From Heligmosomoides polygyrus polygyrus (taxonomy: Eukaryota; Nematoda; Chromadorea; Rhabditida; Heligmosomidae), in assembly GCA_947396885.1 (NCBI GenBank), contig OX377206.1, positions 11,958,778-12,022,777 of the forward strand: a DNA stretch of 64,000 nt, in the 5' to 3' direction. Below the pieces are notes generated by a model. The model saw nothing but the letters and a program-made list of their open reading frames with translations. It was not told where the DNA came from and did not search any database. The stretch's first letter is position 1. Each line of letters opens with the position of its first letter. Position numbers and translations under genes: made by a program. Below are positions 3,892-61,415 of this stretch, in pieces.

Positions 3892-5140
3892 GGAGGTTGG
3901 AAAAAAGTATTTTCAATTTTTTTTCGAAGATTTATTAATTCACAACTACAAAGTAAATCAATTGAGATAAAATCCATTTTGTTCCACTACACTTCTCCGA
4001 AGACCGGGTAATTTTCCAATTCCTCTCGCTTAAAAGACTGCACTTCTGGAGTCGAACCATTACTGAATCCAATTTTTGAGGTCTTCATGCGTTTCGAGTT
4101 ATTTCTCTCCAATTTCTTGCTTGAGAGCACGGAAGAGATGGAAGTCGGTAGGGGCGAGGGCTATACGGTGGATGTGGCATTACCTCCCAGCCCAGCTCCT
4201 TTATTGTTTCTCTTTGAATCTTGCAACATGTGGATTTGCATCGTCATGCAGGATCATCATCTGCTTTGACTTCTCCGGCTCGTTTTCTTGGAGAACTGCT
4301 GGAGTTGGCCACTGTACGTAGCAGCAGTAAGTGTCTCTCCACTTCTGAGGGTTTTCCAGCAAATCACTCCTCTGACATCCCACCAAACACTCAAGAGAAT
4401 CTTCCTTTCGTCAACATTGGCTTGAGATCAGGCTTAGGGTTCTCTCCTTTTTGTACCCATTGCCTTTTTCTTCGGAGGTTGGCATACAGAACCCAGGACA
4501 CATCGCCTGTCGCAATCCGCGGCAGAAACGATTTTCTTTCGTATCTGGACAGAAGAGAAGCAGCGATGGAGAGCCGTTGGCCTTCCTGAGTGTTTGACAG
4601 GGTATGTGGAATCCAAGCTCCAAATTTCCATGCAAAGCGAAGACCCTTCAGATGGATTCCCACTATCCTATGAGACACTTCGAGCTTCTCTGCCAATTGA
4701 CGTATCTTCTGCCTACTGTCGGTACGATGAAGATGGAGTACTTCAGTGTCGTCCAATTCAGTTGGCCTTCCTGACCTTGTTTTGTCCTCGAGTGAATAAT
4801 CTCCCTTTAAAAACTTTCCGAACCACTCGTAACAGACGCGATGAGTATTAGATCCCAAGCCGTATATATGGTTAATTTGGTCGGCTGCCTGACGTGCTCT
4901 AGATCCATTAGTGAATTCATGAAGAATGTCGTGCCGAAAATGGCCATGAGGTAGATCTGGCAATGAGTCCGGAAGATTGGATAGATAACGAAGTACAAGA
5001 AGGGTCTTGACCTGTGTCCGCGTGCGAACGGTGGACAGGTGTGATAGGATTACGAAATCAGCAATCAATACTGGCTAGTGTGTTGACAAGGAGAACGGTA
5101 AAAAACTTTTCGAAGTGTGAAGAGACTTTTTTCCAACCTA
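3892..5140 (-). mobile_element. Mariner-type transposon, degenerate
   Basis: About 1.25 kb, the usual mariner length. The ends are inverted: AGGTTGGAAAAAAGT near 3894-3908 and its complement near 5125-5139. A mariner-type transposase, read on the minus strand, fills the inside. The left terminus has drifted, so the exact first base and TA duplication are uncertain. It abuts the inverted GTGTCC array that starts at 5141. Confidence 0.85.
4085..5068 (-). pseudogene. Mariner transposase pseudogene
   Basis: Would encode a DD34D-type mariner/SETMAR transposase that binds the terminal repeats and moves the element by cut and paste. The longest open piece (4391-5068, 225 aa) has the N-terminal helix-turn-helix region with the family motif 'WFGKFLKGDYSLEDKTRSGR', then the second helix-turn-helix 'AEKLEVSHRIVGIHLKGL' and the first catalytic stretch 'ATGDVSWVLYANLRRKRQWV'. 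The second catalytic region (MILHDDANPH) and the third (APTDFHLFRALKQE, near 4120-4160) lie in other frames after stops and frameshifts. All three acidic positions can still be traced, but the gene is broken and cannot make a full protein. Confidence 0.85.
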
Positions 5141-13651: not shown

Positions 13652-13942
13652 AAAGGATAAAGGATAAAGAACGGCGTTAGTCAATCCCTTTGGGATGCGC
13701 CACGCACTCTACTTCTACGGGATATCTTGAAGGCGATTTGAATGCGTATTTGGACATTCAATGACTGGCGGTGGCCAGCCGATGAACAATTCGGCGCCCT
13801 ATCCTTCCCAGACAAGTCTGGTACCAATTCATCGACCCCGGAGGGATGGAAGGCTTGGTTGGCCTGGGCGAGAAATCCGAACCAGGAACCTGGTGTCGGG
13901 TGCACGCGACAGTCGGCGCCTCCTCCGAATGCGCTACGCGCG
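13652..13942 (-). repeat. tRNA-derived SINE, nearly full length
   Basis: In reverse orientation, so the (GGATAAA)n-type tail is at the left (13652-13675) and the tRNA-like head at the right. On the minus strand the head has the A-box-like 'gcgcattcggaggaggcgcc' and the B box 'ggttcggatttctc'. The body contains the family's conserved run ending in 'tcccgtagaagtagagtgcg'. ORFs here (13681-13979) are artefacts of the repeat. Confidence 0.85.
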
Positions 13943-14832
13943 CCCAGGGGCTCTAAATATAGATAATAATAAGTTCTGAAAATGTGTTTATTTGAACATT
14001 AGTACGTTTGCTTTATGCAAAAATGCCCAGCTTGTTTCGAAAGGTGACCGGTTTGCAACTAAGAGTTCAATTTAAGGTGGAAATGGTATCTTATCTGATT
14101 GAAACACCATTTTCCTTAAGATGCTTTTTGTTTTCATTTTGCTGACGGTACACAGGATTCGAGCATAGTGATGACCTACTCTAGTAATACCCTAAAAGTG
14201 CAGAAAAATAGTATGACTACGAATAAATAAAAAGTAAAAAATAAAAAGAATATACTTCAATGGGCCAAGTTCGGTCTAGATACGCATTAGATGGTGACTG
14301 GATTTGGATCTAGTGGTATAAATCATGGAGCTCAAGTCTCTGTTAATAATCCATTTCTCGTGCTTAAAAGAAATTCACTCCAAGCATGCTGATAGAGAAG
14401 AAAGGAAAGTTCGTTTGAACAAGAGCTTTGAAACAGCTCTACGTAGTGAGGAGATTCGATATGCCTTGAAGATGTGCCATTCGCTTAGAAGAGATTTGCA
14501 ACGTTTCGAGAGAGTGATATCTGAAACGCTGACGACAGCACTTTCTTAGCCGATGCAAAAACAGCTGTCGTCATTGAAATCCGACTGAAACGATTATAAA
14601 TCGGTTAAGCTCACGAGTAGCATCGGAAGTAGAAAACGTGTACAGCTGGTGGCACTCCTGCCTTGTAAGCGAGATGACGTTACTCGACTCGATTATGTGG
14701 AGTGCCAATAAGTTACAACAAACAAGGCTGGGTACTGATTTACGCCTAATTGGTTTAATTAAACGTCTCAAAGGGCATGCCTGTCGTCTCCATATAACAA
14801 GAACATGGTGTGCTGATCTAGTCCAGTCTAAC
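13943..14832. other. Unassigned spacer
   Basis: A 74-codon ORF at 14325-14549 is rich in K, R and E but resembles nothing I can name. No repeats were recognised. Confidence 0.3.
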
Positions 14833-21910: not shown

Positions 21911-21932
21911 GGTTTAATTACCCAAGTTTGAG
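21911..21932 (+). other. Perfect genomic copy of the nematode SL1 spliced leader
   Basis: All 22 bases match the conserved nematode SL1 leader, from GGTTTAATTACCCAAG to the final TTTGAG. This is not an SL1 RNA gene: such genes continue straight into a splice donor (GT), whereas here the next bases are GCTACG. The likely origin is reverse transcription of a trans-spliced mRNA, with the leader marking the old mRNA 5' end. The downstream sequence resembles that after the SL1-like copy at 43225. Confidence 0.85.
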
Positions 21933-22115
21933 GCTACGAAGAAGGGAAAACCACCGATATGTTTGCGGGAATAAACATCTGCAACAATCTCGGCTCAGAT
22001 GAATAATCAATTCTCAGACGAATAATCAATAATAATCGCTCCAAGCAAATGCAACGACAAAATGCCAAAATTCACATAAAGTCGAACGCGGGCCCTCCCA
22101 ACTTTACAGCGAACG
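21933..22115 (+). pseudogene. Possible SL1-led retrocopy, parent unknown
   Basis: The sequence directly after SL1 starts 'gctacgaagaagggaaaacc'. If ACG is a decayed ATG it would read M-K-K-G-K-P-P before losing frame. The copy after 43246 starts 'actctgaagaaagaaggcaa', which aligns with it, so both may descend from one trans-spliced transcript. I cannot name the parent gene. An in-frame ATG at 21957 opens only a very short peptide. Confidence 0.35.
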
Positions 22116-22854: not shown

Positions 22855-24117
22855 TTAGGTTGTCCGGAAAGTTTTTAGACTAATATCGGGGAACAATGTA
22901 TAGTTAATAACTTTATTAACAACCATTCATTCAACAAAATATTCACTATTATGATCTATCACATATTGCCATCTTTCCGGTAGAGAGCCAATACCACGAG
23001 CGAAGAACTCCGGAGACTTGGACAGCAAGAAGTTGTTGACACCACTTTTGACTTCCTCCCGATTTGCGAACTTTTTTCCAGCTAAGAAAGACTGCAGCGA
23101 CCAGAAAACGTGGTATTCACTGGATGCAAGATCAGGTGAATACGGCGGATGGGGTACCAGTTCAATCCCGAGTTCCTCCAATTTCTTCTGCGTATTCTTT
23201 GCTGTGTGAGGTCTGGCGTTTTCCATGAGAAGAAGAACTTTTCCTCTTCTGGGATTGTGATTACGTAGGATTTCGCTCGTTTTCTCCAACTGAGCGCAAA
23301 AGACGTTCGAGTCTATCGTGGAACCGGTAGAAAAGGATTCCCAGAATACTAGGCCATTGACGTCCCACTAGATGGAAAGCAACTCCTTTTTCTCATGATC
23401 AAGACGTTTCGGCCGTGGTTGAGGCAACTCATCGAAGTCCACCCATTGCTTGCGACGCACCAAATTGTCGTAGACGCAATACTTTTCATCCATCGTGACG
23501 ATCGAGTCGATCCAAGCAAATTTACGATTGAGGAGAGAAGTGCAGGTATCAACACGCTTCCGTTTGTTCTGAGGCGTCAAAGCATGCGGTACGACTCGAG
23601 GCAACTTCGCGACTTTGCCAGAAGACCGAAGAACATGGTGTTCTGTGGACTTAGAATTATTTGAAAGGTCTGACAGTTCGCGTACAGAAAGATCAGGTCG
23701 AGCACCGCAGGTGGCGAGTACGAGCTGTCTGTTCTGCGTATGTGGTCGACCTGTGCGTCGGGAATCCTCGAGCGATTTGTCACCGTTGTCGAACTTGCGG
23801 TACCAATTGTAGCACGTCGCCCGAGAGGAGGCTTCCTCCTTCATTGTCTCTTGTAGAAAGCGATGGGCCTCGTTCGCGGATCGGCCGAAGCGGTACTGTA
23901 GAAGGAGAGCTGGTCGGTAGAGCATCTTCTTGTCGTCCATTGCGAAGGCGCCACTGGGAACAGGAGACGATATTTCGCACATGCTGCCGTTGGTTACATA
24001 TACAGGACATGAAACACAAATTTCCTAAGTCCGGCATTCTCACAACTTCAGCCGGCAAAGATACTTTGTTTTGAATCTTACCATGCAATTAGTCTAAAAA
24101 CTTTCCGGACAACCTAA
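22855..24117 (-). mobile_element. Mariner transposon with complete ends
   Basis: 1,263 bp. The terminal repeats TTAGGTTGTCCGGAAAG (22855) and its exact complement (ending 24117) are flanked by TA on each side (22853-22854, 24118-24119), the standard mariner target. The element is almost intact, with one transposase reading frame on the minus strand interrupted by a single stop. It is among the younger insertions in the window. Confidence 0.95.
22927..23982 (-). pseudogene. Mariner transposase with one in-frame stop
   Basis: A cut-and-paste DD34D transposase, about 351 codons in one frame. It has the N-terminal helix-turn-helix with 'YNWYRKFDNGDKSLEDSRRT', the linker 'LPRVVPHALTPQNKRKRV', the first catalytic stretch 'IVTMDEKYCVYDNLVRRKQW', then 'LLLMENARPHTAKNTQKKL' and 'PHPPYSPDLASSEYHVFWSL'. 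The frame is broken only by a TAG just before 'WDVNGLVFWE', where family members have WWD, so it is probably a W-to-stop change. The second and third catalytic positions read E (MENARPH, SEYH) where mariners carry D, with the usual 34-residue spacing. Even without the stop, activity would be doubtful. Confidence 0.95.
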
Positions 24118-24253
24118 TATGTAAGACGGACGAAACTTTTTGGCACTCTTACCGCTTTGAGTGATCCCGTCTTCGTTTACGTTGTATATTCGTATTTGGT
24201 ACCAATACTTAGAGAAACGTATGTAGTTTTAAACAGTTGTGGATCTTTGGGAG

Positions 24254-24538
24254 CATGTGGCGCAGTCGGAGGAGGTGTCGGCTGTCGCGTGCAACCGACA
24301 CCAGCTCCTGGTTCGGATTTCCCTCCCAGGCCAACCAAGCCATCCACACTTCCGAGGTCGGTGAATTGACTCCAGACTTGTCTGAAAAGGATAAAGCGCT
24401 GAATTGTTCATCGGACGGCCACCGCGAGTCATTGTATGGCCAAATACGCATCCAAATCGCCTTCAAGATATTCCGAAGAAGTAGAACACGTGGCGCATCC
24501 CAAAAGGGATTGAGTAACGCCGTCCTTTGTCCTTTTTA
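24254..24538 (+). repeat. tRNA-derived SINE, nearly full length
   Basis: Head with A box 'tgtggcgcagtcggaggagg' and B box 'cctggttcggatttccct', body with 'gacttgtctgaaaaggataa', then 'gagtcattgtatggccaaat' and the tail 'taacgccgtcctttgtcctt'. It is a good reference copy for the family. Confidence 0.9.
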
Positions 24539-26221: not shown

Positions 26222-26634
26222 CGGGAATTGACCAAAAGACATGCGCGGTACTGTAGAAAATGCTCATGATGATATTCAGGTTCTGATCATACTGATAGAA
26301 ATTTGGGGCACAATATTGAAAAGTGTTGTAAATTCCAAATTCTCGCTGCTATAGTACATGGATGGAAAGTCTCTAGCCAATCAAACGATATCTCCAAATA
26401 ACACTAGAAGATTTTGAGTTTGATTTTCTCATTCATTGTGCATAATCTATAGGCATATCGCGTAAACCCGTCGTTTTCTTGATTTTCTGAGAAAGCTTCT
26501 GAAAGAGAGATCTGGCCGTGTAAAAGACGATGTCAGGGTTTAGAGAGTCAATGAGCTCTAGCAGGATAGTTATCCACTAGTAAAAAGTGTTTTTCGTTGC
26601 TACTCGAGCTGCCTCTCCCTACCAAGATCATCTT
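26222..26634. other. Unassigned spacer upstream of the SL1-CHMP4 copy
   Basis: No gene or repeat recognised. The bases just before the leader (ctaccaagatcatctt) would hold the upstream target duplication if the retrocopy kept one. I could not match it downstream. Confidence 0.3.
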
Positions 26635-26656
26635 GGATTAATTACCCAAGTTTGAG
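26635..26656 (+). other. SL1 spliced leader copy joined to a start codon
   Basis: 21 of 22 bases match nematode SL1 (GGATTAATTACCCAAG in place of GGTTTAATTACCCAAG, then TTTGAG). The next three bases, 26657-26659, are ATG. There is no GT donor, so it is not an SL RNA gene. It is the 5' end of a retroposed, trans-spliced mRNA. Confidence 0.9.
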
Positions 26657-27010
26657 ATGAGCTCCTTTAGTAAGATATTCGATGGAAAGAAGCAGGGGTG
26701 GCACCGTTGACGCAGGATGCGATCTAGAGGCTTCGAGACGGGACGGAAGAGATGCCCATTAAGAAGCAGAACTTCTTGGAGAGGAATATCAAACATGAAT
26801 TAGCTACAGCGGTGAGACATGAGACCAAGAATAAGCGATTGGCATTAGAATGCTTTTGGTAGGAAGAAACAGTTCGAGGAGCGGTTGAACCATATTGACG
26901 GAGTTTTACAAACTACGGAGCTTCTAGTCGCTTCAGACGAATTGTTATGCAAAACACAGCCGCTCACACTGTTATTAAACTGACTAACTTCGAAAAGGGT
27001 TGTAAACGTT
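26635..27010 (+). pseudogene. SL1-tagged processed pseudogene of CHMP4/Snf7 (ESCRT-III)
   Basis: The parent protein is the Snf7/CHMP4 subunit (VPS-32 in C. elegans), which polymerises on endosomal membranes in the ESCRT-III complex. The copy starts with SL1, then ATG and 'MSSFSKIFDGKKQG'. After a frameshift near 26698 it reads 'APLTQDAI', a TAG where CHMP4 has Q, then 'RLRDGTEEMPIKKQNFLE' and 'KHELATAVRHETKNKRLALE', the characteristic basic first helices. After another shift (about 26858) come 'GRKKQFEERLNHIDGVLQTT' and 'FRRIVMQNTAAHTVIK' (about 26929-26976). At least three frameshifts and two stops make it non-functional. The later acidic C-terminal part is not visible. No intron interrupts the similarity, as expected for a retrocopy. 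Confidence 0.9.
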
Positions 27011-27469
27011 CGAATTCAAAAGTCGGAAGCGGCGGAAACTTTTGGTCCGACCTAATGCACGAGTTAGCTGCATGAGAAGTTATTCTTCTGCAGCAAAGGA
27101 AAGAAACCGTATACTGTGGTCAGTTGAAACTGCTCAGAACTACAGAGTGGATGAATCACGGGAAAGACACCGGAACCCGTTCGAGATTCAGCCACAGAAA
27201 ATCCAACACGGTTGAAAGGGGTTTGAGGTTGCTACAGAAAGGTAGAGCAGAAGAATGGACGAAAACATCGTGAAGGACAAACACATAAAGGGAGGAAAAA
27301 CGGCTTGAGACTAGAAGAGAAGACATCGATGCATAGCGAACGAAATGTGCGTTGTAATACGGAACACTGGATCCAGCTCGATGCCATTCTGTTTATTCCT
27401 GAGCAGATTTGCTTTCGAGCTTGCAGGTTGTTTTGTTTTGTTGTAGCAGTGGGTGACACCCCTAGTAAC
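27011..27469. other. Unassigned spacer
   Basis: May include the decayed end of the CHMP4 copy, but I can trace no more similarity. ORFs at 27232-27459 overlap on both strands and are not recognised. Confidence 0.3.
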
Positions 27470-27860
27470 GGATTATTTTATCAGCGACAACATCAATTAA
27501 GCCAACAATATAGCCAGATCGCACAACAGGCCTGCGGAATTGTGCGTTTTCGAAGCCGTTCAGGGATAAGAAACGCCATTGCTTTGTCCAAGCCATCAAA
27601 AATTGGGTGGGCCAATCACGTAAAGGGCTTCTTTTGTTAAGCGCTGGACGAAAGCTGTACGCATTTGGACTCTGCATGTCAAAAGAGAACCATGAGACCA
27701 AAACGCGTTGGACAATCCTCTTCGTGAAAATCTGAACAAAAGGCACGAAATTGTTCGTGCCTCTGGAGCGAGAAAGACCACATGGACTACTCTGGCATGC
27801 GACAGGGATGAGTGGGAACATTACAGCGCGATCAGTGGGACCGCATGTGATGCAGTTCAT
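27470..27860 (+). pseudogene. Non-LTR retrotransposon (RTE-type) 3' coding remnant
   Basis: Fragments in changing frames match the C-terminal tail of nematode RTE-type reverse transcriptases: 'KPSKIGWANHVKG' (like K.RW.GHV.R), a 'RWT'-like piece near 27708, then 'ASGARKTTWTTLACDRDEWE' just before 27830. The last block is the highly conserved 'HWATLARDRDEW' ending. From memory, this block is common in hookworm gene models of retroelement origin. A SINE has inserted directly after it. Confidence 0.65.
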
Positions 27861-27862
27861 AA

Positions 27863-28148
27863 CGATAAGGATAAAGGACTGCTTTACGCAATCCCCTTTG
27901 GGATGCGCCGCGTTTTCTACTTCTACGAGATGTCGTGGACGCGATTTGAATGCGTATTTGGCCATTCAACGACTTGTGGTGGCCAGCCGATGAATAAATC
28001 AGCGCTTTACCCTTCCCAGACAAGTCTAGTATCAATTCGCCGACCATGGAGGGATGGAAGGCTTAGTTGACTTAAACGGTAATCCGAACCAGGAACCTGG
28101 TATCGGGTGCATGTGACAGCCGGCACCTCCTCCGACTGCGCTACACGC
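27863..28148 (-). repeat. tRNA-derived SINE, nearly full length
   Basis: Reverse orientation: tail 'gataaggataaaggactgct', body 'acttctacgagatgtcgtgg', and head at the right with the complement of 'gtgtagcgcagtcggaggag'. It lies between two LINE tail remnants. Confidence 0.85.
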
Positions 28149-28254
28149 CTCCGATGAAGGTGATACAGGCGACATCTTTAGGTAGGGACATAAGAAGTCG
28201 AACGAAGGATGCAGGAAATAACAAGGTTCATGTACAAGAAGGGCTAAGTTCACA

Positions 28255-28560
28255 AATCGTGACGCTTAAGAATAAAAGACACGGATGCCTGGCTGAAGTC
28301 GTCGCAAATTAAGTGGGCCAGCGTTTCGCTGACACCTTGCAGATCGAGAATCGTAGGCGATTGGATTCTGCTGGATGAAAAAATATCACCAGAATAATAC
28401 TGGTTCGTTGGTGATACGTATTCCCAAAGAGGACGCAAAATCAAACCGGCACGCCACAGGGACGAGTGGAAATGTTCTGGCACCCGCGCGAGAAATTCGA
28501 TGACCAACAGGACGAGAAGTGATGCATTAAGTCAGGCACTCGAAACAAGACCATGTAAAG
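28255..28560 (+). pseudogene. Second RTE-type tail remnant
   Basis: Reads 'RHRDEWKCSGTRARNSMTNR' near 28461-28520, again the DRDEW-type end, preceded by a poor match to the 'K..WA.....D.R' region. It is probably a separate 5'-truncated LINE of the same superfamily as 27470-27860. The similarity is short, so the call is tentative. Confidence 0.4.
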
Positions 28561-29187
28561 GGTGTCTGAGATTTGCGAGCGTTGGTAAAGCCTTCCGCAA
28601 TGACCAATGCCTCGAAAAATGAAAGAAGTTTAATGTAGTTAGATTGTCAGCAACAGGCAAAAAGCTACAAACGATCTGTTGTTGAGCGCAGGCGCTTTGT
28701 TTTGCACACTATCTGTTACTTCTTAGATGATCATGGCTATTCTCATCACCTGACAGGGAGCTCTTATAGATGATGGAAAAGTCATTACGAAAGACGAGGC
28801 GAGGCCATAAATCTGCCAACTTCGGCAAAAATCGTCGCACTTTGGAAGAGTTGTTTTCAAATGTGGGCACGAACCCGTTCACGACCCTGAAGCTCTCAAC
28901 AAGTTGAAGAAACGGAGATTGCTGTCAGGTGACATTACTATTGCTACAGCGGCTCTGCTGAGCTAATTCCGTTCCAGATTTCTGCCGAAACAGCTGGTTG
29001 CTAGAAATAGACCTTCATCTGACCGAACTATTCCATCTATCAAGAGTGGTTTTGATTGTTTGGTGAGCAGAAATAAGTGCAGTAGAAAGGAAATAACAAG
29101 AAGGTAAGCGTCAACAGAATATGCAGAAATAGAGAGATCACACGCTCAGCAAAATTGAGGATCTCATTGACACTAACATCAGAAATG
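28561..29187. other. Unassigned spacer
   Basis: Contains long stretches open in one frame or another (for example 28780-28930) but without recognisable motifs. Confidence 0.3.
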
Positions 29188-38380: not shown

Positions 38381-38671
38381 AAAGGATAAAGGATAAAGGA
38401 TAAAGGACGGCGCTACTCAATCTCTTTTGGGATGCGCCACGCCTTCTACTTCTACGGGATGTCGTGGAGGCGATTTGGATGCCTATTTGGCCATAAAATG
38501 ACTTGCGGTGGCCAGCCGATGAATAAGTCAGCACTCTATCCTTCCCAGACAAGTGTGTTACGAGTTTATCGACCCCGGAGGGATGGAAGATTTTGTTGGT
38601 GGGATATCCGTACCAGGAACCTGGTATCGGGTGCACACGACAGCCGGCACCTCTCACGACTGCACTACACG
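38381..38671 (-). repeat. tRNA-derived SINE, nearly full length
   Basis: Tail with three 'aaaggat' units (38381-38407), body 'acttctacgggatgtcgtgg', head at the right. It forms a tail-to-tail pair with the copy at 38082-38348, which can fold back on itself. Confidence 0.9.
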
Positions 38672-43224: not shown

Positions 43225-43246
43225 GGTTTAATTACCCAAGTATGAG
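43225..43246 (+). other. SL1-like leader copy
   Basis: 21 of 22 bases match SL1; the single change turns TTTGAG into TATGAG. It is followed by ACTCTG and not by a GT donor, so it is not an SL RNA gene. The next ~30 bases align with those after the perfect SL1 copy at 21911. A SINE begins about 65 bp downstream. Confidence 0.75.
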
Positions 43247-43312
43247 ACTCTGAAGAAAGAAGGCAATCTCACCGAAACTTCAATCAATAAGTTTTATATG
43301 ATCTCGGAAGGG

Positions 43313-43605
43313 AGCGTGGAGCGCCGTCGGAGGAGGCGCAGGCTGTCTCCAGCACCCGATACCAGGTTCCTGGTTCGGATTTCCCGCCCAGGTCAACCAA
43401 GCCTTCCTTCCCTCCGGGGTCGGTGAATTGGTACCAGATTTGTCTGGGAGGGATAAAGCGCTGACTTGTTCATCAGCTGGCCACCGCAAGTCATTGTAAG
43501 GCCAAATACGCATTCAACACGTCTCCACGACTCCCGTAGAAGTAGAATGCGCTGGCGCATCCCAGAAGGGATTGAATAACGCCTCCTTTATCCTTTATCC
43601 TTTAT
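43313..43605 (+). repeat. tRNA-derived SINE, nearly full length
   Basis: Head 'ggagcgccgtcggaggaggc', B box 'cctggttcggatttcccgcc', body 'ttgtctgggagggataaagc', and the tail ends in two to three 'tttatcc' units at 43582-43605. It is one of the best copies, with the clearest repeat tail. Confidence 0.9.
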
Positions 43606-43624
43606 TATGGCGTGCACACCAAAT

Positions 43625-60519: not shown

Positions 60520-61415
60520 TCAAGCGCCGGTTCACTCTCTTCAAAGGAGAAGACACGGACTTCGGAGACAAGCTTCGGTCTGGCGCGCCCACACAGTGGA
60601 GGACTCCCCACTTTTCGACGCCGTCATAGATAATCCTGAGGTTAGCAGCCCCAGTTCTGCAACGAGACTCAGGTGCACCCATCCAACAGTCCTCAGTCGT
60701 CTCCAGACCTTCGGCTACAGAAAAGTTCTGACTCGATGGGTCCGTCATGTCTTGGCCGATGGCCCATCGAGGAGGGACCATCGAGTCAGCACATGGCCGA
60801 TGGCCGGTTCACTCGGGTACTAATTTGTCGGTCTCGCTTTCTACACTCCATCGAAAATATTTTCCGGAAGGGCCGATTACTGGAGATGAGAGTTGAGCCC
60901 TCTGCGATTCTGAGACACATCGTGCTGTGCGGCCAACTCGAGAAGAAAACCCGCCAGCGCAAACCAAAATGCACCTTCACCCCAAGGAGTGTCTCTTTTG
61001 TTGCTTCCGGGATTCGCGAGGAATGTTGTACTACGACCTGCTCCCGCAAGGACACACCGTAATCGGCAACGTTCATGCCATTCGACTGCAGGAACGGACA
61101 AACCCGGTTCAAGAAATACGGTCGAGACGTAATTCTGTTCACCTCCTTCTCGACAGCATAAGGCCTGATGCAGCTAAAGAAACACGTGAAAAATTCGAAG
61201 AGCTGAACTGGGACAATGTTCCCACCCACCCTATTCCCCTGATATTGTCGCCTCTGACTATCGCTCATGTCGACCCCTTTAGGCATACCTGGCGAAGAAA
61301 AAAATCACCAAAACCTAAAGATGTTGAAAGGGAGATCGGCCGATTCTGTGACTTTCAGTCTCTCCAGTTATGGAGAAGGAAAGCGCTATTAGGTGGCATA
61401 CAGTACCGTCGGTAA
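60520..61415 (+). pseudogene. Mariner transposase relic
   Basis: Fragments in order but in several frames: 'FKGEDTDFGDKLRSGAPT' (about 60540-60595), 'RCTHPTVLSRLQTFGYRKVL' with 'TRWVRHVLADG' (60670-60765), 'RFLHSIENIFRKGRLLE' (60838-60888), then 'HLLLDSIRPDAAKETREKFE' with 'ELNWDNVPTHPIP' (61140-61240) and 'WRRKALLGGIQYR' at the end. The second catalytic D is kept in LLLDS; the third site is frameshifted. No terminal repeats are recognised. It begins right after the AT-rich MITE. Confidence 0.75.

Follow-up and report, generated by a model that had tools for sequence, protein, structure and literature searches.

An apparent DNA copy of an SL1-trans-spliced CHMP4 mRNA in a nematode genome

The window, by which we mean the whole 64,000-nt stretch of DNA analysed here (C60:11958778-12022777 of assembly G000, 656,174,362 bases in 1130 contigs), contains at 26635..26656 on the forward strand a 21/22-base match to the nematode SL1 spliced leader; the match reads GGATTAATTACCCAAGTTTGAG. 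As the initial annotation had stated, ATG follows directly and without a gap (ATGAGC, the ATG lying at 26657), so that the splice donor GT is absent after the leader, unlike in an SL1 RNA gene. At up to 3 mismatches the window holds three SL1 strings against 0.01 expected from 100 shuffles, at 21911, 26635 and 43225 with 0, 1 and 1 mismatches respectively; all three lack a GT directly after the leader, and no further SL1 string was found in the window at 2-5 mismatches. No RNA family matched 26580-26880 in Rfam at E<=10, and the SL RNA family was not among the Rfam matches at the three window SL1 sites.

From its ATG onwards, the sequence is that of CHMP4 (VPS-32), in a decayed state. Exon 1 occupies 26657..26796 (+), identified by profile and by alignment to the parent mRNA, with a 1-nt deletion near 26696, an in-frame TAG at 26725 and a 3-nt insertion near 26740; the first 118 of the 129 nt of exon 2 follow at 26797..26915 (+), joined exactly to exon 1 in the parent-mRNA alignment and with a 1-nt insertion near 26848. 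The frame slips and the in-frame TAG disable the reading frame, which makes the copy a pseudogene. A frame-aware profile built from 117 CHMP4 proteins scored 207.6 here, against 56.0 for the next best among 230 overlapping window tiles, and a single unmended frame (26659-26850, stops written as X) matched human CHMP4B at E=3.4e-10. The description of the sequence as broken but clear CHMP4 thus stands, and the similarity is firm. Because the reading frame is broken, Pfam scans of three separate frames of the copy gave no match and a first PDB search with another frame gave weak matches only (best E 0.51 to a ribosomal protein; CHMP4B 0.75). Among the near-invariant CHMP4 codons 11 of 45 are changed, from which the age of the copy was estimated at about 0.12 changes per site; at that rate at most one change in the 22 leader bases has a probability of 0.24 and is unremarkable. 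What remains of it today is neutral debris.

A protein search of the same assembly with CHMP4 returned 12 matches in all. Five are the exons of one gene at C13:101612527-101627077, the intron-bearing parent for which a search had been proposed; one is the window copy, four form two inverted pairs (C13:88.60 Mb and C371), and the remaining two lie 4.4 kb apart at C13:95.73 Mb. This last region (C13:95725629-95730135, in part L074) looks like a second, more distant CHMP4-like gene, probably intron-bearing. Exon 1 of the parent starts at C13:101612527, where the DNA at the trans-splice acceptor reads TTCTTCCAG directly before ATG and continues from TTCTTCCAG into ATGAGCTTG. The initial annotation had named a leader-like string upstream of the parent's ATG as evidence against its reading; in the 227 bases fetched (L069) there is no SL1-like string upstream at up to 8 mismatches, and the only string with 8 mismatches is situated downstream, where exon 1 ends.

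When 26635-26915 was aligned with the spliced parent mRNA carrying SL1 as a prefix, 243 of 277 aligned bases were identical, and the aligned part, from base 1 of SL1 to mRNA position 278, includes the junction of exons 1 and 2 at position 160. SL1 in the copy is fused exactly at the parent's trans-splice acceptor, with SL1 before ATG where the parent has TTCTTCCAG before ATG. Intron 1 of the parent, about 10.7 kb long, is missing with an exact join at 26796/26797, and the copy ends before the position of intron 2. Because SL1 is absent from the parent DNA and the intron has been removed exactly, we infer that a mature, trans-spliced mRNA was reverse transcribed and inserted, as the initial annotation had proposed for this ESCRT-III mRNA. 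Judged by sequence, 26635-26915 is very probably a DNA copy of the mature, SL1-trans-spliced mRNA of this genome's CHMP4 gene, now decayed, with its 5' end complete and its 3' part cut off, and it would follow from the copy that the parent CHMP4 mRNA carries SL1.

The end of the feature had been placed at 27010, which is too far. The copy stops at 26915, 11 nt short of the parent exon 2/3 border: when 26916-27200 is compared with the mRNA beyond position 278, its score is equalled by 404 of 2000 shuffles, and mRNA positions 279 to the end show no similarity within 26916-28900 (102 of 200 shuffles as good), so that no exon 3 was found. Near-invariant codons are changed at 24 of 29 positions beyond 26915 versus 11 of 45 before it (Fisher 1e-6). 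An exon-3 continuation at 26932 (residues 92-138), about 4 SD above the local mean, was rejected; among the 63,857 positions of its strand in the window the candidate comes only second, and like scores occur elsewhere on both strands. The stretch after the copy, 26916..27497 (no strand assigned), is not recognisably CHMP4 by alignment and shuffles. Its part 26947-27497 matches 152 of the 184 residues of P0121, an ORF that comes from another data set. Because a DNA search found no second copy of 26947-27497 in this genome, P0121 was rejected as a second retrocopy; it probably represents this same flanking sequence in a different animal or species. Scans with SL1, P0121 or the copy yielded nothing in viral, bacterial/archaeal and plasmid collections.

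A poly-A relic and a target duplication had been suggested as marks to look for, and neither was found around the copy: there is no run of A6 or longer in 26657-27900, no target duplication of at least 8 nt anchored at SL1, and none of at least 6 nt at the outer borders 26590-26603 and 26906-26935. Together these results describe an insertion without a classical mark, and the copy lacks three classical features of a LINE-type processed pseudogene, namely poly-A, target duplication and the mRNA 3' end. Age could hide a target duplication here. One possible interpretation is therefore that LINE activity made an ordinary processed pseudogene, which afterwards lost its 3' half, poly-A and target duplications by deletion or decay, since the copy is old by its 11/45 changed codons and decay can hide tails and duplications; we consider it rather unlikely in the light of the younger and paired copies described below. 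The SL1 tag does mark the 5' end, as had been claimed. It does not by itself find full-length retrocopies, because the window copy is 5'-complete but 3'-truncated.

Immediately upstream of the leader, an antisense stretch at 26598..26627 (-) corresponds to parent mRNA 217-246 with 26 of 30 bases identical. It is 30 nt long, ends 7 nt upstream of SL1 and contains no part of SL1. Its score was reached by 0 of 2000 shuffles and by 10 of 2981 random 100-mers from the window; when it was compared with the decayed copy itself, 90 of 2000 random anchors were as good, and in a uniform inverted-arm test it scored 19, with the 95% level at 18 and the 99% level at 26 (455 mismatched pairs). Taken together, this stretch is a probable inverted antisense piece of CHMP4.

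Further copies of SL1-tagged mRNAs were found elsewhere in the genome. At C13:88.60 Mb (L072:286-903), alignment to the parent mRNA reveals two SL1-CHMP4 cDNAs head to head, in both orientations: the antisense arm has SL1 (20/22) and mRNA 1-250, the spacer is about 17 nt, and the sense arm, whose leader is decayed, covers mRNA 3-375 with both exon borders spliced, so that the 3' cuts fall at two different internal points. The same arrangement occurs on the 17.5-kb contig C371 (L073:340-963), and because the two are 96% identical over 1150 nt they were counted as one event. Their flanks are not common to the window copy. To the left of both lies what appears by eye to be coding-like antisense sequence of another gene.

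These additional CHMP4 cDNAs at C13:88.60 Mb and C371, together with the presence of an SL1-headed repeat family in the window itself, could suggest that a transposable element captured an SL1-CHMP4 cDNA once and then spread it. We regard this as very unlikely: a DNA search with 26560-27500, which missed the diverged L072/L073, returned only the query itself, the parent exons and two 46-50-nt matches (query 446-500), while L072/L073 share no flank with the window copy and are cut at other points. Moreover, SL1 also tags copies of RACK1 and FAM91.

One of these is an intron-less RACK1 cDNA with an exact SL1 at L045:1501-1949 (C1:6965941). Against the joined exons of its parent it is identical at 419 of 427 bases (98%), and both introns in the copied part are exactly absent. 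Its protein corresponds to RACK1 residues 2-130 of 317 (E=4e-59 to RACK1 chains); a higher-scoring match is to a protein of many like WD-40 repeats (E=1e-97). The match ends inside exon 3, with 5 extra A at the 3' junction, which a short A tail could also explain. The RACK1 parent is an intron-bearing gene at C39:45749624-45753346 whose acceptor, TTTAGTTAAG followed by GCTGTAAC, is without SL1. A second intron-less RACK1 cDNA with an exact SL1 lies at L097:150-800 (C1:84960329), where 438 of 456 bases aligned to parent exons 1-3 are identical; the introns are absent, with 7 bases missing at the first exon border and the second border exact. This copy is longer than that in L045, its 3' limit being judged by eye. 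Both have an antisense SINE border on the left, and because this border is common to them the two RACK1 copies may stem from one event. The third cargo is a FAM91 piece at L076:121-700 (C1:97654418), in which SL1 and ATG precede a broken FAM91_N domain (Pfam E=2.5e-10); SINE-like sequence follows this N-terminal domain by eye. Parents were identified for two of the three cargoes, CHMP4 and RACK1.

The LINE interpretation can be judged against these copies. LINE-made copies usually show 5' truncation with the 3' end intact, and the combination of an intact 5' end and a truncated 3' end reverses this pattern. The 5 extra A at the L045 junction fit a LINE origin. Yet this copy, still 98% identical to its parent, is missing its 3' part, and the CHMP4 pair in L072 is cut at two different internal points.

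In the whole genome, exact SL1 occurs 2235 times (1197 + 1038), whereas the backwards control occurs 0 times. GT follows in 1465 cases (820 + 645) and 770 strings are non-GT. The scan for SL1 without GT that the initial annotation had recommended thus does find such strings, but they are a mixture and not all retrocopies. SL1 directly before ATG occurs at 30 places, of which the first 21, in 20 stretches, were sampled; a further sample consisted of 60 stretches with the first 67 exact SL1 places listed, all on contig C1, which divide into 39 with GT after the leader and 28 without it. The two samples together contain 49 non-GT sites (28 from C1 and 21 with SL1+ATG), and coding content was assessed at 10 of them: at the Pfam cut-off, the 10 frames gave 2 host-gene domains (WD40 and FAM91_N), 1 mariner transposase (L040) and nothing in 7. 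The SL1 near the transposase in L040 is followed by ATAAAC. In L027:501-1533, six SL1+GTAAAC units about 200 bases apart are likely an array of SL1 RNA genes.

The abundance of GT after SL1 (1465/2235) raises the possibility that the string at 26635 was left by a former SL1 RNA gene and is only by chance a neighbour of a CHMP4 fragment. At least four SL1+ATG sites (L078, L083, L086 and L088) do look by eye like such GT-to-AT relics and not like mRNA copies; in them AT replaces GT after SL1, and they otherwise resemble L010, L020 and L060, with ..CCGCGTGGC downstream (by eye). For 26635, we give this explanation practically no chance, because the join at the parent's acceptor and ATG is exact, exons 1 and 2 are spliced, the same exact join recurs in RACK1, and Rfam has no RNA family there.

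The other two SL1 strings of the window are of a different kind. An exact SL1 at 21911..21996 (+) heads a short repeat, in which SL1 is followed by GCTCTGAAGAAGGCG....CGCCGAAACG..., and blastn aligns this stretch, SL1 included, with both arms of a palindrome in L049 (77% over 87 nt, E=1.8e-12). The SL1 (21/22) at 43225..43278 (+) heads the same repeat, with a SINE next to it, and matches L012 by blastn at 81% over 54 nt (E=5e-9), again with SL1 included. Genome neighbours thus place 21911 and 43225 in one repeat family; a first pairwise test of the three window SL1 strings had shown nothing beyond SL1 itself, and a common origin of all three was rejected. Members of the family (L012, L017, L018, L025, L029 and L049) have a complete SL1 and then CTGAAGAAGGCG....CGCCGAAACGTTAGCC, forming a hairpin, and are sometimes arranged as head-to-head palindromes. 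A strict form of the repeat pattern was found at 10 of the 67 C1 SL1 places, 2 of them in the GT class; the repeat at 21911 failed this strict pattern, and its membership is by blastn match. The core of the repeat presumably resembles a hammerhead, and a hammerhead-bearing Penelope-like element was considered for the repeat at 21911 and 43225. This candidate was rejected, as the hammerhead model gave no match: among 20 Rfam matches at E<=1 in L012, L017, L029 and L049 there was no hammerhead. The sequence after SL1 gave nothing above chance in Pfam (21911 and 43225) or PDB (21911).

The window also contains other mobile elements. A mariner at 22858-24118 has matching terminal repeats of about 30 bases and a transposase in two pieces on the minus strand, and other mariner pieces lie at 4391-5074 and 60897-61415. 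A dispersed SINE of about 300 bases, tRNA-like by eye, gave 13 matches by blastn within the window, the query itself counted; copies include 13652-13945, 24249-24535, 27867-28148, 38386-38671 and 43301-43606, and one SINE starts 60 bases after the SL1 at 43225.

To see how often SL1 strings stand next to inverted sequence, inverted arms were scored against the 99% level of 455 mismatched pairs (largest 57), with 200 nt and then 300 nt after SL1. In the C1 sample, a small one from a single contig on which the head-to-head counts rest, 5 of 28 non-GT sites versus 1 of 39 GT sites exceeded this level, and the result was the same with 300 nt; among the SL1+ATG sites 1 of 21 (L084) did. The five C1 sites represent four distinct places, two being the arms of one palindrome, and all five fit the repeat family and not mRNA copies. 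The palindrome in L049 is near-perfect with a 15-base centre, and that in L017 has no centre.

An inverted half-leader was seen at the RACK1 copy in L045. Here an inverted half-SL1, CTCAAACTT, stands directly before the GG that begins SL1, together with 17 inverted 5'UTR bases; the inverted-arm score of L045 is 24, below the 99% level. In its exact form the half-palindrome is CTCAAACTT joined to GGTTTAATTACCCAAGTTTGAG. A half-leader scan of 92 sites flagged only L045 and, weakly, L016. SINE borders were scanned at 50 non-GT sites outside the window, with L097 included as a RACK1 copy, and three of them have the antisense 5' end of the SINE upstream of SL1, at a distance of 1 nt in L097, 5 nt in L091 and 35 nt in L045. 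No such border was seen at the GT sites (0/39). L089 has a 17-base antisense SINE match away from the SINE 5' end.

The arrangement at the SL1-tagged, 3'-truncated CHMP4 copy of the window could have arisen as follows. Reverse transcription would have begun inside the CHMP4 mRNA and not at its poly-A tail, and the cDNA would have run through to the SL1 end. This end would then have been joined to a second, antisense cDNA, either by two-sided priming, in which the second cDNA is primed at the opposite side of the target break, or because the cDNA folded back on itself at SL1, and the joining would have left the antisense CHMP4 piece upstream of SL1. Both two-sided priming and fold-back fit the data. 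That the cDNA was joined at its SL1 end to a second cDNA has, in our estimate, not quite an even chance. Somewhat more tentatively, we propose that the genome is being seeded by a distinct route, in which internally primed cDNAs of SL1 mRNAs reach the leader and, through two-sided target priming or fold-back, enter the chromosome in head-to-head arrangement with a second cDNA; this partner may be the antisense of the cDNA itself, a further copy of that mRNA, or a SINE.

Genomic relics of a spliced leader have precedents. In dinoflagellates, DinoSL-tagged retrogenes are established (PMC12014239; PMC6050394), in agreement with the initial annotation, which had pointed to them, and as here the leader relic in the DNA marks the 5' end of a copy of a trans-spliced mRNA. 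DinoSL retrogenes are described as abundant, expressed and re-trans-spliced, whereas the nematode copies examined here are partial or broken, and some of them face another cDNA or a SINE in a head-to-head arrangement. In flatworms, one study set aside 597 partial-leader loci beside mobile elements as possible integrated transposon transcripts (PMC12582326); these too are leaders in the DNA of an animal genome without a functional SL RNA gene, but there the cargo is transposon RNA and the leaders are partial, whereas here the cargoes are the host mRNAs of CHMP4, RACK1 and FAM91 and the leaders are complete. Retrocopies in Caenorhabditis (PMC3532220) are likewise mRNA-derived gene copies in nematodes; 'spliced leader' and 'SL1' have 0 occurrences in the main text of that paper, and its available passages report no leader relic. 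Co-alignment with repeats is described for about a third of the trans-spliced genes of a cyst nematode (PMC6362198), and the available part of that paper describes no re-insertion ('reverse transcri' and 'integrat' have 0 occurrences). In C. elegans libraries, SL1 cDNAs are reported to form self-primed hairpins in vitro, the 5' GG of SL1 pairing on an internal C run (PMC9984361). L045 shows this SL1 fold-back in genomic DNA, whereas the C. elegans hairpins are described there as an in-tube library artefact, and the window copy is without that exact fold. Among the best-ranked literature records, which included few subscription journals, we recognised no description of SL1-tagged mRNA retrocopies in a nematode. 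The kind of element is already known; to judge from this literature, what is new is the host, the cargo and the shape.

These observations bear on how gene copies are recognised and how they arise. A leader that exists only in RNA, when found in a chromosome, is a base-by-base proof of passage through mRNA. Most nematode genes carry SL1. The SL1 tag makes retrocopies in nematodes countable and gives their exact 5' ends, and the present results are also a warning that SL1 strings in assemblies include sequences other than SL RNA genes. If the proposed route is true, the genome would hold a large number of gene fragments, perhaps hundreds, that are SL1-tagged and 3'-truncated and lack poly-A. 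The head-to-head, 3'-truncated shape of the copies gives an indication of how reverse-transcribed RNA can enter animal chromosomes outside the LINE poly-A route.
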